From contig NZ_JACXZT010000019.1 in the NCBI RefSeq assembly GCF_014779595.1, positions 473,185 to 537,184 of the forward strand: a stretch of 64,000 bases of DNA, read 5' to 3'. Both the position numbers and the translations under genes were made by a program. Positions 7,852 to 28,111 of the stretch are shown in pieces. The notes under the pieces were generated by a model. The model had not been told where the DNA came from. It made no database searches and was given only the letters and a program-made list of their open reading frames with translations. Position 1 is the stretch's first letter, and every line of letters begins with the position of its first letter. The DNA comes from Halomonas sp. ML-15 (GTDB taxonomy: Bacteria > Pseudomonadota > Gammaproteobacteria > Pseudomonadales > Halomonadaceae).

Positions 7852-10461
7852 TCACCAGACCATCAGATCGATGCCGCTGATAAAGGCGCCATCGCCCGAC
7901 ACGCTCAGTTCCCTTGTGCCGGCATCCGCCAGATTCAGGCGCTGCAGTTGTTGCGGTGAAATTCTCAAGCCGTAATCCCCGGCCGCTACCCCTGAAATGA
8001 TATAGAAGCCATCCCAGCTGCTCGTTGCCTGGCCCACGGTCTCTTGCCGATCGTTCAGCAGCTGCAGTTCCAGGTCGCCTACGCCGCGCTCGATACCGTC
8101 TTCGCGAAGATAGACCGTGCCGTCGATCTCCGTGGTCATGCGCATGGGAAACTCCAGCCTGGCCACGCTGCCGGGTCTTGGCACCAGCCGCATCCCTTCC
8201 ACCTCGGGTGCCCACTGCGGGTTTAGCAGGGTCGAGGTATCGACCCCGATATCGACATACTGATTGACCGGCAAGTGCTCGATATAGGCAATGCCCGACG
8301 CATCCGTGCGGACCTGGCGCCTGCTGCCGTTGACCGTGAACCCCACGCTCTCCAGCGGCGCGTCAGCAGCGTTCATCCCACCGCTGTGATTGGGGTCCAT
8401 GAACACGCGTATGGAAGCGGCACCGCTGTTGGCCATGGGTCGGGCACTGTAGCGCCAGCGGGAGCGCCGGGAATCTCGACCCATGGCCACAAACAGCTGT
8501 GCCCCCAGCACCATGTCTCCCGTATCGATGTAGCTTGCGTTCACGCCAAGCCCGAAGCTGCCCAGGCTTTTGGTCAACCCCGCCGTGTAGCGGGTTTCGG
8601 GTTCCACGAAGGTGTGGGCGACGCTCAGCGTGCCACGATAGCCGTCTGCCAGGTACCTGTCGGCGGCGAGCGCCAGCGAGGAGACGTCGCTCTCCGCGCC
8701 CAGCAGGTATTCGACCTGGCCGCGCCAACTCGTATCGCGCACGCGGCGGCTAATCTGCAGGCTGCCGGCGGTGTGCTCGTTGTTACCGGAGGCGTGCCAG
8801 CGCAGGGTATTGGTGACAGCTGTGCGCTTCACATACGCCGACACGCGAGCGCTGACATGGGTATCGGTCACCCCGGACTGGCGTTCATCTCGCGCCGCCT
8901 CGAGCGTGACGGGCAGGCGTTGACGCGGTGTCAGCGGCACACTGCCGCTGAGTCGAAGCGCATCGCGGGTGCGAACGGGGTCGCTGCGACTGGGAAATAG
9001 CTCGCTGGTGAAATCGCTCAGATGGGCACGACTCGCATCCACCGCCACGCCGCCGATGCGCGTCTGGACACCGAGTTCGGCGAGTGACCCGCCGTCACTG
9101 GCCTGGACGACATCTGCGCCGATACTCAGCGACTGCCAGAAGGTCCTCACCCCGAGGTTGGTATAGAGCGTCTCGCCCCCGCTCACCGGTGCCCGAACCA
9201 TCCCCGCCGAGGCGGTCAACGAACGCGCCAGCCCGAGGTCGAACTGGACGATGGATCGGGTTTGCCCAGCATCGTCCCGATGCTCCGTCACGCTGTACTG
9301 GAATTCCCCAGGACGCACCATGGATTGATCCAGCGGAAAGCTGTATCGCTCGACCCGCGTCTGGCCCAGGGGGCCGTTGAACAGCAGGCGGAAATCATTG
9401 CGGCCGTAGCTCAGGGGCTGGTCGTCGAAACGATAGCGTCCCTCGGCATCGGCGAGTGCAAACCCCACCAGGGCATCGTTGTAATAGAGTTCCACGTCCC
9501 ATCCCGGGGGCAAGTCACCTTCGAAGGCCTGGCGGTCAAAGCTGGTAGGGCGTGTCAGGGGCCGGTTGCTCAAGGTCACCCCCTCGCCGCGAGTGCCGCG
9601 GGTGATATTGTCCACGCTGGCGGTCGAGAGGCTACCGAACCTGACGGAACGCGCTTGCAGCGGACCCAGCAGGTTCGCCCCTGGATCATAGCGCTGGAAC
9701 GTGGCCCGCACTTCCGGCGAGCGGCCCTGATGACGGCTGGAAAAGTAGAGCGAGGACTCCATGCCCAGCAGGTCACCGGTGACAAAAGCGGTATAGCGTG
9801 CGTCGCTCTGGACGCCATCCTGGGTGCGCCGCAGCTCCGTTGCCAGGGTCTGATCGATGGACGGCAGGCTCAGCAGGCGGTATGGCTGCCGGTGATGGGG
9901 ATATCCGGGATCTTCATAGCCGGCACGCGCACCGGCACGCCCCCCCAGGCGCTCCCGGTCGAGCCGGGCCTGCAGAGGCAAGGCCTCGAGGGCAGTCACG
10001 CGCAGCGAGAGGCTACCACGCTCGATCTCGAGCGCCAGCGGCAGCCAGCGCTCGAGCAGGGACGCGGCAATATAGAGGTCGTCCGGCTCTGTCAGCGCCA
10101 GCGCCGGATCGAATGTCTCGGTCGCCCCGCTACGGGTCACGCTGGCGTTGCCCAGGTTCAGGCTGAAGCCACGATCCTCACTGAGAATGAAACCAGTGGC
10201 GGACCCTTCCCGGGGCTGAGTCTGGATGGCAATGGTCAGCAGTCTTGCCAGCTCGCCGAGTGGCAGCAGGGTATGCTCCCCCACCTCATAGGCGGGGATG
10301 GCGTTCGACAGGACGAACTGATCCAGGCGCACTTCCAGCAGCAGAAACTCCGGCTCGCTGGCATGCTCCTCGGCCGTCAGGACCGGGGCATGGGCAAACA
10401 GCAGGAGCACTAGAATCAGTATCGCCAACTGACCGGCCCGGCGGGCGGTAGCGAATGTCAT
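7852..10461 (-). CDS. Outer-membrane usher-like protein of a DUF4402 pilus system
   Basis: An 869-residue outer-membrane assembly platform. There is a signal peptide (about 1-29), an N-terminal periplasmic domain (about 40-150), then a long beta-rich barrel (about 200-680). In the barrel the usher-like stretch LPPGWDVELYYNDALVGF and VERYSFPLDQSMVRPGEF is readable. After about residue 685 come two Ig/B-like repeats (FMDPNHSGGMNAADAPLES, then a carboxypeptidase-regulatory-like segment near 800). It is shorter and more divergent than FimD/PapC. It lies 25 bases after the chaperone gene and is last in the riboswitch-controlled operon. The role as translocator of the DUF4402 subunits is inferred from context and fold. 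Confidence 0.8.
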   Translation of the reverse strand: MTFATARRAGQLAILILVLLLFAHAPVLTAEEHASEPEFLLLEVRLDQFVLSNAIPAYEVGEHTLLPLGELARLLTIAIQTQPREGSATGFILSEDRGFSLNLGNASVTRSGATETFDPALALTEPDDLYIAASLLERWLPLALEIERGSLSLRVTALEALPLQARLDRERLGGRAGARAGYEDPGYPHHRQPYRLLSLPSIDQTLATELRRTQDGVQSDARYTAFVTGDLLGMESSLYFSSRHQGRSPEVRATFQRYDPGANLLGPLQARSVRFGSLSTASVDNITRGTRGEGVTLSNRPLTRPTSFDRQAFEGDLPPGWDVELYYNDALVGFALADAEGRYRFDDQPLSYGRNDFRLLFNGPLGQTRVERYSFPLDQSMVRPGEFQYSVTEHRDDAGQTRSIVQFDLGLARSLTASAGMVRAPVSGGETLYTNLGVRTFWQSLSIGADVVQASDGGSLAELGVQTRIGGVAVDASRAHLSDFTSELFPSRSDPVRTRDALRLSGSVPLTPRQRLPVTLEAARDERQSGVTDTHVSARVSAYVKRTAVTNTLRWHASGNNEHTAGSLQISRRVRDTSWRGQVEYLLGAESDVSSLALAADRYLADGYRGTLSVAHTFVEPETRYTAGLTKSLGSFGLGVNASYIDTGDMVLGAQLFVAMGRDSRRSRWRYSARPMANSGAASIRVFMDPNHSGGMNAADAPLESVGFTVNGSRRQVRTDASGIAYIEHLPVNQYVDIGVDTSTLLNPQWAPEVEGMRLVPRPGSVARLEFPMRMTTEIDGTVYLREDGIERGVGDLELQLLNDRQETVGQATSSWDGFYIISGVAAGDYGLRISPQQLQRLNLADAGTRELSVSGDGAFISGIDLMVW

Positions 10462-10486: not shown

Positions 10487-11317
10487 CTATAGCGATAGCT
10501 GCGCCTCGGCCAACAGCCGGCCACCATCCTTCGCCTGCTCCCGATAGGTGACGCGAAGCGTGCCGTTGCTGAGCGGTAGGCCACTCGGCGGTCGCAGTAC
10601 GATGCTCGCCCGGCGCAGCGGGTTGGGGGTATAGACCGCCACCCCATTGGCACGGCCAATGACCTGCTCGTCCCCGCTTCTCGGAGTGAAGCTGACGGTC
10701 AGGTCGCCGTAGACCGATTGCGTGCCGCTACGCTGCATCTGCAGGCCAAGCAGCGGCGCGCCGCTCGATGCGCGCTGAAGCGCGAGCCCGGTCAGCGAGA
10801 CGCTAGCGTCGGTACTGCCATGCCGAACGATCACCGGGATCGACGCGCCGACCAGCGCCGTCAACTGGATCCCTATCCCCTCAGCGGCACCGGCACCACG
10901 GCTCTCGATGCTGCGACTGCCCTGGCTATCGGGCTGCTGCGTAAACAGCAGGTGCGAGCGATACTCGCCAACCGCCAGATCAGCCGGCTTCTGCACCATG
11001 ATGCGGATAGCCTGCCCGACGCCGGGTTCCAGGGTCACCTGGCGCGGCGAGTAGCGCAGCAGCTCATCGGCGAATCGTTCGCCAGGCAAGGGCGTATCGG
11101 TCTCCGTAAAAGCGCCCGTTTCGCTCATGCGTCGGTTGACCAGGGCAATGCGATAGGTGGCGCTTTGGGTACCGTTGTTGATCAGTTCCAACTCGGCCGA
11201 GCGCTGATTGCCCTCGAGGACAATTCGGGTCGGATAGAGCATCAGCTGGGCCATCGCCTGACTCGCCGGCAATATGAGCAGCAGGACACACAGGGTGACG
11301 CGGTACAGCAACGTCAT
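10487..11317 (-). CDS. Periplasmic pilus-assembly chaperone (PapD-like)
   Basis: About 276 residues from the Met at 11317: a signal peptide ending AMA near residue 22, then two Ig-like domains. The N-terminal domain includes LMLYPTRIVLEGNQRSAELELINNG (the G1-type donor region) and later RYSPRQVTLEPGVGQAIRIM, which is the FimC/PapD signature. The chaperone would hold DUF4402 subunits by donor-strand complementation and pass them to the usher. No start has a good ribosome site; 11317 is preferred because it puts the signal peptide at the N-terminus, and 11365 is the alternative (16 more residues). Operon order: two subunits, chaperone, usher. Confidence 0.83.
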   Translation of the reverse strand: MTLLYRVTLCVLLLILPASQAMAQLMLYPTRIVLEGNQRSAELELINNGTQSATYRIALVNRRMSETGAFTETDTPLPGERFADELLRYSPRQVTLEPGVGQAIRIMVQKPADLAVGEYRSHLLFTQQPDSQGSRSIESRGAGAAEGIGIQLTALVGASIPVIVRHGSTDASVSLTGLALQRASSGAPLLGLQMQRSGTQSVYGDLTVSFTPRSGDEQVIGRANGVAVYTPNPLRRASIVLRPPSGLPLSNGTLRVTYREQAKDGGRLLAEAQLSL

Positions 11318-11439
11318 GAGACGCGCTTTCTGGCTCAAGGCATCGGGAAGCATGGCGGGATCCATTTGTCGCGTTTATCGGATGTACGGGAGGGCCCGGG
11401 TCACGCTGGTCACTACCCAGCCGCAGTGCCAGGGATGCA

Positions 11440-11910
11440 TCAGTTGTAATTCACGGTAATGTGGAAGGTACCGGAGTAAGCACCCGGCGCCTGACCGCTG
11501 CCAACGTTGAGCCTGCCCCCAACCGTCAGGGTCTGGGAGCCTCCCCCGCTCAATTGGCCGTCGGCTCCGGCAGGAGAACTGGTAAAGTCGTTGACGACCA
11601 TATCGCCGCCCGGGCCCATCAGCTTGACGAAGTCGTCGCCAGGCAACTGAATCGTATAGGTCGCCTCGGTATCGCCTGTGACCGTATACTCCGCGGGCAG
11701 ACCGACGCTCGAGGGGATCAACAGCACATCGCCTCCGGCGCTGCGTACGCCACTGGTGCTGACCGCGACCCAGCCGCCACTGCCGGCCACGAAGCTGCCG
11801 AACGACAGCCCTCGGGTATTATGGATCTCGACGTCCTGCGCCCATCCCTTGGATGCCATCATGATGGCCAGGGCAGCGCCAGCCGTGATCATTGGCCAGT
11901 GGCGTGTCAT
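11440..11910 (-). CDS. DUF4402 pilin-like subunit (second copy)
   Basis: A 156-residue exported protein. The signal peptide ends near residue 23 (MASKGWAQ), followed by one DUF4402 domain: LSFGSFVAG near residue 34, VAVSTSGVRSAGGDV, then EYTVTGDTEATYTI and a C-terminal YSGTFHITVNYN. DUF4402 domains are found in secreted subunits near chaperone-usher genes. Start ATG 11910 has GGGAGC 8 bases upstream; the longer frame to 12054 has no ribosome site. It shares only the core motifs with its upstream neighbour and lacks the 'ISPIAI' segment, so it may be a tip or terminator subunit rather than the major pilin. Confidence 0.8.
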   Translation of the reverse strand: MTRHWPMITAGAALAIMMASKGWAQDVEIHNTRGLSFGSFVAGSGGWVAVSTSGVRSAGGDVLLIPSSVGLPAEYTVTGDTEATYTIQLPGDDFVKLMGPGGDMVVNDFTSSPAGADGQLSGGGSQTLTVGGRLNVGSGQAPGAYSGTFHITVNYN

Positions 11911-12066: not shown

Positions 12067-12627
12067 TTAGTTGTACTCGACCGTGGCAGTCACATCGCCG
12101 GTATAGAGGCCTGCTACCTGCGCTGCACCCACATCCAGCGTGCCACCCAAGTAGATGGACTGGGTACCCGTCTCGCTCAGCGTACCGGTGTCCACTTCGC
12201 CAGAGGTGGCATCGCCAGCGGTCAGGTCACTGATTCGTGCCAACACCATGGTCTCCCCGGCCCCAGCTGTATTGGTCAGTGAGGTAGCACCGGACCAGGC
12301 AATGGTATAAGTCGCATTATCATCACCGGTGACGTCGAACTTGGCGGCGGCCGGTGAGGAGCCGATGGTTGACAGAATGACATCCCCTGACGAGGTTCGG
12401 GCACCGCTAGTGGAAACCGTCACGGTGCCGACTGCGACGCCAGCCGCAAACCTGCCGAAGTTCAGATCCACGTCCGTAGTGATCGCGATGGGCGAAATAA
12501 CGGAGGCCTCCGCCGTTGTCGAAGACTCTGCCGCAAAGCTGCTGGATGCCCCGAAACTCCCAAGTGCGACAGCGGAAACCAGCGCGGCGCTGCGTGCATG
12601 CTTATACATAAAAGTAGAAGTAGCCAT
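12067..12627 (-). CDS. DUF4402 pilin-like subunit (first gene, probable major subunit)
   Basis: A 186-residue exported protein. The signal peptide is about residues 1-33 (ends SSFAAES), then a full DUF4402 domain follows: ASVISPIAITTDVDLNFGRF, VTVSTSGARTSSGDV, KFDVTGDDNATYTIAWSG, and a final LYTGDVTATVEYN strand. As first gene after the cyclic di-GMP riboswitch it is likely the most abundant product and so the structural pilin. ATG 12627 is preceded by CAGGGG. A free N-terminal strand before the domain (SSTTAEASV) could act in donor-strand exchange. Polymer formation is inferred, not visible. Confidence 0.85.
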   Translation of the reverse strand: MATSTFMYKHARSAALVSAVALGSFGASSSFAAESSTTAEASVISPIAITTDVDLNFGRFAAGVAVGTVTVSTSGARTSSGDVILSTIGSSPAAAKFDVTGDDNATYTIAWSGATSLTNTAGAGETMVLARISDLTAGDATSGEVDTGTLSETGTQSIYLGGTLDVGAAQVAGLYTGDVTATVEYN

Positions 12628-12764
12628 TTATCAATCCCCTGTCAGCAATTGCCACGGCTTATTTGCCGTCGATAATCGCTTGAGTGAACACCGGTCAGGT
12701 GAAGGGCCGATAACAATGCGATGAGGGGGCGGACATAGCGAAAGAGCTGCCCGCAACCACATGG

Positions 12765-12862
12765 AATGTCGGCGGTCCCGCTACCATGGGGCTGCTATAC
12801 CCTTTAGGCCGGTGACTTTGCGTCCCCGACTTTCGACGGGTTTGCCTTTTCGTGCTGTTCAA
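12765..12862 (-). promoter_or_regulatory. Cyclic di-GMP class I (GEMM-I) riboswitch
   Basis: On the minus strand the leader shows, in order, the conserved GEMM-I elements: AGCACGAAAAGGCAAACC, a P2 hairpin closed by a C-GAAA-G tetraloop, GGGGACGCAAAG, the tetraloop receptor side CACCGGCCTAAAG, and GGTAGCGGGACCGCC. The order and spacing match the family. It begins about 240 bases ahead of the first DUF4402 gene. Downstream (12721-12747) a 7-bp stem GCGGGCA/TGTCCGC, with one G-U pair and no T-run, could be part of the expression platform. Binding of c-di-GMP would switch the pilus operon; the direction (on or off) cannot be read with certainty. Confidence 0.92.
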
Positions 12863-27804: not shown

Positions 27805-27849
27805 TGGTGGGCCCAGCTGGACTCGAACCAGCGACCAAGGGATTATGAG
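27805..27849 (-). repeat. 3' fragment of a tRNA-Met gene (attachment-site scar)
   Basis: Minus strand: CTCATAATC is an anticodon loop with CAU. It is followed by the variable loop, a T-arm GCTGGTTCGAGTCCAGC, and the 3' acceptor strand TGGGCCCA ending in CCA at 27807-27805. The 5' half of the tRNA is absent, and the sequence right of 27850 is unrelated. Elements that integrate into tRNA genes leave exactly such a 3' copy at their far end. The intact partner gene is not in the window. A full tRNA gene is therefore not called. Confidence 0.82.
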
Positions 27850-27850
27850 T

Positions 27851-28111
27851 TCGCTTTAAAACAATAAGCTACTGACACACAACGAAAAACGACCGTAATC
27901 GAGCGAAAGTGCAGTTCTTTGGAATGAGTAGCTTAGCAAAAGTTGATAATTGCAAACGAAGCTGGTGCGTGGACCAATGGAGTGCCGTTTCGGGATAGCG
28001 AGGGAGACGCCATACTAGCGGGGCCTGCACGCGGACCGTGATGCTGGAAGGTGCTGCTTGGGTCTGATCAACTTAGAACAGTAACAGCTTTCGCTGCTCA
28101 ACACCCGGCAG
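27851..28111. other. Non-coding stretch between tRNA scar and IS21 element
   Basis: No convincing gene. A 9-bp inverted repeat TAAGCTACT / AGTAGCTTA (27865-27873 and 27927-27935) is the only structure seen and could be an integrase or regulator site of the lost element. Confidence 0.35.

Follow-up and report, generated by a model that had tools for sequence, protein, structure and literature searches.

A class I c-di-GMP riboswitch before a DUF4402 pilus-like operon in Halomonas and relatives, with a putative translational OFF platform

The leader of a four-gene operon in Halomonas sp. ML-15 raises the question of whether a pilus-like system is placed under the control of c-di-GMP by its own RNA and, if so, in which direction pilin production would be changed. 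We addressed this question with the 64,000-nucleotide stretch of DNA that carries the operon (hereafter, the window), the rest of its genome and the genomes of relatives.

The aptamer, its expected ligand and the operon behind it

An earlier note on this DNA had assigned positions 12765–12862 to the GEMM-I class, in a leader reading into a DUF4402 operon, and had proposed an Infernal search with the GEMM-I covariance model. The search (cmscan, 64-kb window) returned a match to RF01051 (Rfam c-di-GMP-I) at 12768–12856 on the minus strand (75.5 bits, E 5.2e-13), above the gathering score of 35 and covering model positions 1–87 in full. The span given previously brackets this match, the conserved blocks quoted with it are present in the sequence, and class, strand and location were all confirmed. 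The window copy was the sole RF01051 match found in a search of the whole genome (4.80 Mb, 20 contigs), and it lies 140 nt 5′ of the first DUF4402 pilin gene, on the same strand. The aptamer and the genes behind it are as follows.

12768–12856, minus strand: complete c-di-GMP-I (GEMM-I) aptamer (RF01051 score and covariation in 12 leaders)
12067–12627, minus strand: DUF4402 protein 1, putative pilin, 186 aa (PF14352, 94.2 bits)
11440–11910, minus strand: DUF4402 protein 2, putative pilin (PF14352, 104 bits; likely start ATG at 11910, picked by eye from the alignment)
10487–11365, minus strand: PapD-like periplasmic chaperone, 292 aa (PapD_N, 18.5 bits, E 0.0021, below the cut-off of 23)
7852–10461, minus strand: usher-like outer-membrane barrel with a C-terminal SdrD_B/CnaB-like domain, 869 aa

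Elsewhere in the window, a tRNA match at 27808–27878 on the minus strand (Rfam 29.8 vs 29 bits, E 0.037), with no counterpart from ARAGORN, is probably due to chance or to a degraded tRNA.

The aptamer fold is conserved. In an alignment of 12 leaders, five aptamer pairs had changed on both sides, versus 0.5 in shuffles (0/500). The P2 (GAAA loop) and P3 hairpins had 92.6% of their cells paired, with a covariation score reached by 0/500 shuffles, and the model pair columns 40–83 were unpaired in 12/12 leaders. At the Rfam columns that we take to be the ligand contacts G20, A47 and C92, the window copy has the canonical G, A and C. The corresponding residues in the 16 leaders compared were 14 G and 2 A at G20, 16 A at A47, and 15 C and 1 T at C92. 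An A at the G20 position, presumably the change that marks GEMM-Ib (cGAMP) aptamers, was thus absent from the window and limited, among these leaders, to L007 and L117b; in L007, it occupies Rfam column 11 of a DUF4402 leader that is otherwise intact. With canonical residues at all three positions, the window copy is predicted to bind c-di-GMP and not cGAMP. The genome has 45 GGDEF matches, and c-di-GMP signalling is therefore expected in this bacterium.

The earlier note had described the genes as encoding two DUF4402 proteins, a chaperone and an usher. The two DUF4402 assignments stand, and the chaperone is PapD_N-like at a sub-threshold score; PapD_N was matched at E≤0.01 by 8/8 members of chaperone set A2 (the window protein and seven relatives), and the top PDB match of the chaperone profile was FimC (E 0.016). 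The usher assignment found no counterpart in Pfam, with no match to Usher (PF00577) at E≤1 anywhere in the genome of the window; the 10 proteins of set A5, of which the window protein is one, gave none at E≤0.1. We refer to the 869-aa protein as usher-like on the basis of gene context and of a low-confidence structure model of the barrel, for which PapC was the best structural match. None of the four operon proteins matched NCBIfam at E≤0.01, and sequence searches of the PDB yielded only the SdrD B domain, the FimC match and likely chance matches. The operon resembles those of Pap/Fim chaperone-usher pili in combining putative pilins, a PapD-like chaperone and an outer-membrane barrel, but differs from them in its DUF4402 pilins, the lack of a Pfam Usher match and a chaperone below the PapD_N cut-off. 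A search for the word DUF4402, covering part of the literature, returned no match, and this pilus type appears to be barely described.

The leader downstream of the aptamer and the direction of the switch

We aligned 16 related leaders: nine from Halomonadaceae, one from Pseudomonas tumuqii and six from five Marinobacter genomes. This set includes L007, the operon of which ends at a contig edge; outside it are L008 (discussed below), L080, where the contig begins inside the operon, and L086, which has no leader. The following elements, all on the minus strand, were delimited in the window.

12766–12779, minus strand: SWa, comprising the aptamer 3′ arm plus two bases beyond it and forming the 5′ strand of the putative switching helix (pairs with SWb)
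12753–12795, minus strand: AA, a possible anti-aptamer hairpin between the P3 3′ strand and the segment after P1 (duplex of −16.7 kcal/mol in the window, strongest there)
12729–12754, minus strand: hairpin H4 (five aligned pairs, conserved with compensatory changes)
12696–12716, minus strand: SWb and anti-SD, 3′ strand of the switching helix, the second half of which can pair with the Shine-Dalgarno sequence (conservation and anti-SD:SD pairing)
12648–12676, minus strand: hairpin H6, between the anti-SD and the SD (own-versus-swapped p=0.0018 in 12 leaders)
12635–12640, minus strand: Shine-Dalgarno sequence (SD) AGGGGA of the first DUF4402 gene, the ATG of which is at 12627 (all 16 leaders are purine-rich at the corresponding position)

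Across the 16 leaders, 92.5% of the H4 cells were paired, and its covariation score was reached by 0/500 shuffles, its count of pairs changed on both sides being reached by 178/500. The extra stem placed at 12721–12747 by the earlier note therefore holds as a conserved hairpin but not at that position. H6 had 82.1% of cells paired and no compensatory changes. Several other pairings were rejected. Hairpin H5 was unsupported (swap p=0.125) and H7 was weaker than shuffles (p=0.52), and pairing of the segment right after P1 with the SD beat letter-shuffled controls (3 of about 300, fraction 0.010) but not swapped partners (p=0.88). AA gave a clear own-versus-swapped signal (0/5000 permutations, 12 leaders), but it is strong only in the window copy and in L083 and L006, and omitting these three left a swap p value of 0.049; column by column, just 75% of cells were paired, covariation was reached by 54/500 shuffles and a slide of +1 was equally good. 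We therefore rejected AA as a general switch.

Intrinsic terminators were not found between 12400 and 13150 (0 versus 1.1 in shuffles), and the two promoter-like sites from the terminator scan are on the other strand, so we propose no promoter. Masked ribosome sites are commonly coupled to Rho-dependent termination or RNA decay, and a C-rich segment lies 3′ of H4 in Halomonadaceae leaders and L089 (by eye). This segment could be a platform for Rho or an access point for RNase, with SD pairing secondary, and the lack of an intrinsic terminator also fits such control of transcription or decay. However, the C-rich stretch was the least conserved of the ten platform blocks, with a mean pairwise identity of 0.53 versus 0.72–0.81 for the SWb, anti-SD and SD blocks, and we regard this explanation as improbable. 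The highest value among the ten blocks was that of SWb (columns 201–210, 0.81); that of the aptamer was 0.84.

The anti-SD and SD are complementary in all the leaders (duplexes of −7.6 to −12.0 kcal/mol in 16/16), with a mean of −9.7 kcal/mol versus −3.3 kcal/mol when shuffled (12 leaders). In the same 12 leaders, 88.9% of the cells in the paired columns were paired, four cells had changed on both sides and the covariation score was reached by 10/500 shuffles, the swap test giving p=0.07. The putative switching helix (SWa:SWb) can form 10–12 bp in 16/16 leaders, with 10 bp in the window, and its eight alignable pairs had 94.5% of cells paired, versus 30.5–39.8% when slid. The count of its column pairs with a change on both sides was one, which 142/500 shuffles matched, and its covariation score was reached by 67/500. 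At one aptamer position, 14 leaders have C-G, L004 has U-G and L115 has U-A; the outermost pair is C-G, U-G or U-A in 15/16. The own-versus-swapped test of this helix gave no signal (p=0.90), and we discarded its strength as evidence, since the mean duplex of −14.3 kcal/mol was close to the best duplexes in dinucleotide-shuffled platforms (−13.9 kcal/mol, 12 leaders).

We consider a class I switch with a translational platform, turned OFF by c-di-GMP, to be the best explanation of this leader and somewhat more probable than its negation. During transcription without ligand, the aptamer 3′ arm (GGGACCGCCnACA) would pair with the downstream segment UGUUnnCGGn and then UCCC. This switching helix would break P3 and the binding pocket and would take up the anti-SD, so that ribosomes could reach the AGGGGA sequence before the first DUF4402 gene. 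Binding of c-di-GMP would keep the 3′ arm in the aptamer and free the anti-SD to pair with the SD, and the masking of the SD would lower pilin translation and, we infer, pilus output.

We prefer the OFF direction because, with helices enforced, the SD was more exposed in the switching state, because this difference exceeded the mean for shuffled platforms, and because, in the leaders folded by prefix, the switching helix appeared before the SD. The SD was more often unpaired in the switching than in the aptamer state in 15, 16, 14 and 13 of the 16 leaders in four sequence contexts (10/12 in an earlier run with 12 leaders). The mean difference in exposure was 0.18, versus 0.064 (sd 0.036) for shuffled platforms, and none of the 40 shuffled sets gave so large a value; a positive difference in 13/16 leaders, as in the real set, was however seen in at least one shuffled set. 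In prefix folding of five chosen leaders, the switching helix formed once SWb had been made and ahead of the SD; in the complete leaders, three of these five, that of the window included, moved towards anti-SD:SD pairing. In context 0/15, the aptamer state was less stable than the free ensemble by 1.1–6.5 kcal/mol, an amount that binding of the ligand could make up. The unconstrained folds of many leaders nevertheless had the SD largely paired.

The window's own leader can be read as a switch of the opposite sign. The usual role of c-di-GMP is pro-adhesion, and an ON switch, in which the ligand would protect the aptamer and free the SD from another masking fold (in the window, AA and anti-SD:SD), with pilin translation going up, would match this role. 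The unliganded ensemble of the full-length window leader favoured AA with a paired SD, the probability of the switching helix being 0.15. In two runs, forming the aptamer also left the window SD more exposed than it was in the free state (0.36 vs 0.14 and 0.13 vs 0.10), and the Vc1 switch of Vibrio cholerae is reported to be ON (PMC4744006). However, mean SD exposure with the aptamer enforced (0.11–0.13) was below that of either other state in each of the four contexts, 14 or 15 of 16 leaders had more anti-SD:SD pairing with the aptamer than with the switching helix, and AA is poorly kept column-wise. We therefore hold an ON switch to be rather unlikely. The window's own unliganded fold is nevertheless ambiguous in these models: barring kinetic trapping, this copy could adopt an OFF-like fold even without ligand.

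Distribution and probable movement of the switch and operon

RF01051 was found in 20/275 genomes of the family Halomonadaceae (22 copies) and in 51/390 genomes of the order, in searches with stricter filters, which can lose weak matches. Nine of the 22 Halomonadaceae copies precede a DUF4402 gene, and homologues of the chaperone with at least 75% identity were found in 9/275 family genomes, exactly the nine with this arrangement; in G087, the chaperone is on a separate contig from the switch. Five weaker chaperone matches in the family (G123, G125, G161 with 39% identity, G194 and G272) are without a switch. According to Pfam for eight proteins and inspection by eye for the remainder, other class I switches of Halomonadaceae (L013, L014, L016–L019, L021, L020, L022, L011 and L015) stand before RTX genes, SCPU pilus operons, a gene for a giant protein matching multicopper oxidases and an alginate-lyase-like gene. 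The eight Pfam results comprised four RTX, one SCPU pilin, one multicopper-oxidase, one cellulose-binding (L008) and one alginate-lyase-like. In L005 (G098), a frame with an EAL-like start and a GAF-like stretch (by eye) lies 5′ of the aptamer and reads towards it; a c-di-GMP enzyme may be encoded next to this switch.

A scan of genome contigs with eight ushers recovered 14 loci, seven of which were outside Halomonadaceae: three with the switch (Pseudomonas tumuqii, Marinobacter denitrificans and Marinobacter X15-166B) and four without. In the genus of M. denitrificans, the chaperone was present in 12/124 genomes, with the switch upstream in five (the two Marinobacter named above and three further genomes) and absent in seven. 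Of 199 Pseudomonas genomes sampled, P. tumuqii alone had a close homologue (E 8e-145), eight others giving weak matches (E 6e-5 or worse). Further relatives lacking the switch are L086, L090, L091, L093 and L118–L121; in L086, a transposase-like frame (by eye) is located where the switch and first pilin gene would be.

Proteins encoded within flanks of up to 6 kb, some of them shorter, were common to 2/66 locus pairs upstream (12 loci) and 1/36 downstream (9 loci), this comparison covering a subset of the loci. The scattered distribution and rarely common neighbours therefore suggest transfer of the switch and operon as a unit, as one travelling cassette, between several genera. A poorly resolved tree of 22 chaperones, in which the switch-bearing rows need four changes (36/500 shuffles equally low), supported neither a single origin of the switch-bearing chaperones nor a count of events. 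One Marinobacter genome (G700) has a tandem switch and DUF4402 pilin (L117, 2537–2625 and 3366–3454); its second aptamer is weaker (68.3 vs 76.3 bits) and has an A at the G20 position. These switch-plus-pilin copies fit a leader acting on the gene right behind it.

In L008 (G163), the 500 nt after the aptamer hold a complete leader, with SD and ATG retained, before a broken DUF4402 frame, and the next gene encodes cellulose-binding domains; this locus appears to be a remnant of the cassette. One such leader thus exists, and the window aptamer could likewise be an intact remnant regulating nothing any more. However, the window operon is intact, and aptamer and platform have been kept with compensatory changes in Halomonadaceae, Marinobacter and a Pseudomonas, which makes a relic in the window highly improbable. 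The full proposal, a mobile pilus cassette with its own c-di-GMP sensor, in which the switch, DUF4402 pilins, chaperone and non-Pfam usher type would move as a unit (Halomonas, Marinobacter and Pseudomonas) and in which c-di-GMP would shut down pilin translation through a conserved bistable helix, is put forward tentatively, at a likelihood somewhat short of even.

Relation to described c-di-GMP switches

The closest reported case is Vc2 (V. cholerae tfoY), a class I switch in which c-di-GMP is reported to restrict translation through masking of the ribosome site at a distance (PMC7371385). The likeness consists of class and reported direction only; the target of Vc2 is a regulator, whereas here it is a pilus-like operon, and the switching helix is putative. 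Vc1 (gbpA) is, like the switch studied here, a gammaproteobacterial class I switch before a surface-adhesion gene, but it is reported as ON and no anti-SD or terminator is apparent, in contrast to the conserved anti-SD described above (PMC4744006, which also mentions a G20 mutant of Vc2). In Cd1 (Clostridioides difficile flgB), the antiterminator fold engages C87/G86 with bases further downstream, so that the binding pocket comes apart (PMC9262584), much as the alternative fold proposed here would disrupt the pocket with downstream bases. However, both Cd1 and the pilM switch of Geobacter (cGAMP) act on transcription via terminators, none of which was found here. According to PMC6366702, switch direction should not be extrapolated between species. 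Our literature search, of partial coverage, found no description of a c-di-GMP switch before a DUF4402 operon.

If the OFF reading is correct, a little-described pilus type would be tied to c-di-GMP through RNA alone, with a predicted sign contrary to the way in which c-di-GMP usually relates to adhesion. The leader would also provide a testable model, at the level of base pairs, of how a class I switch could work with no terminator, for which the natural variant leaders and the tandem duplicate constitute ready test material.
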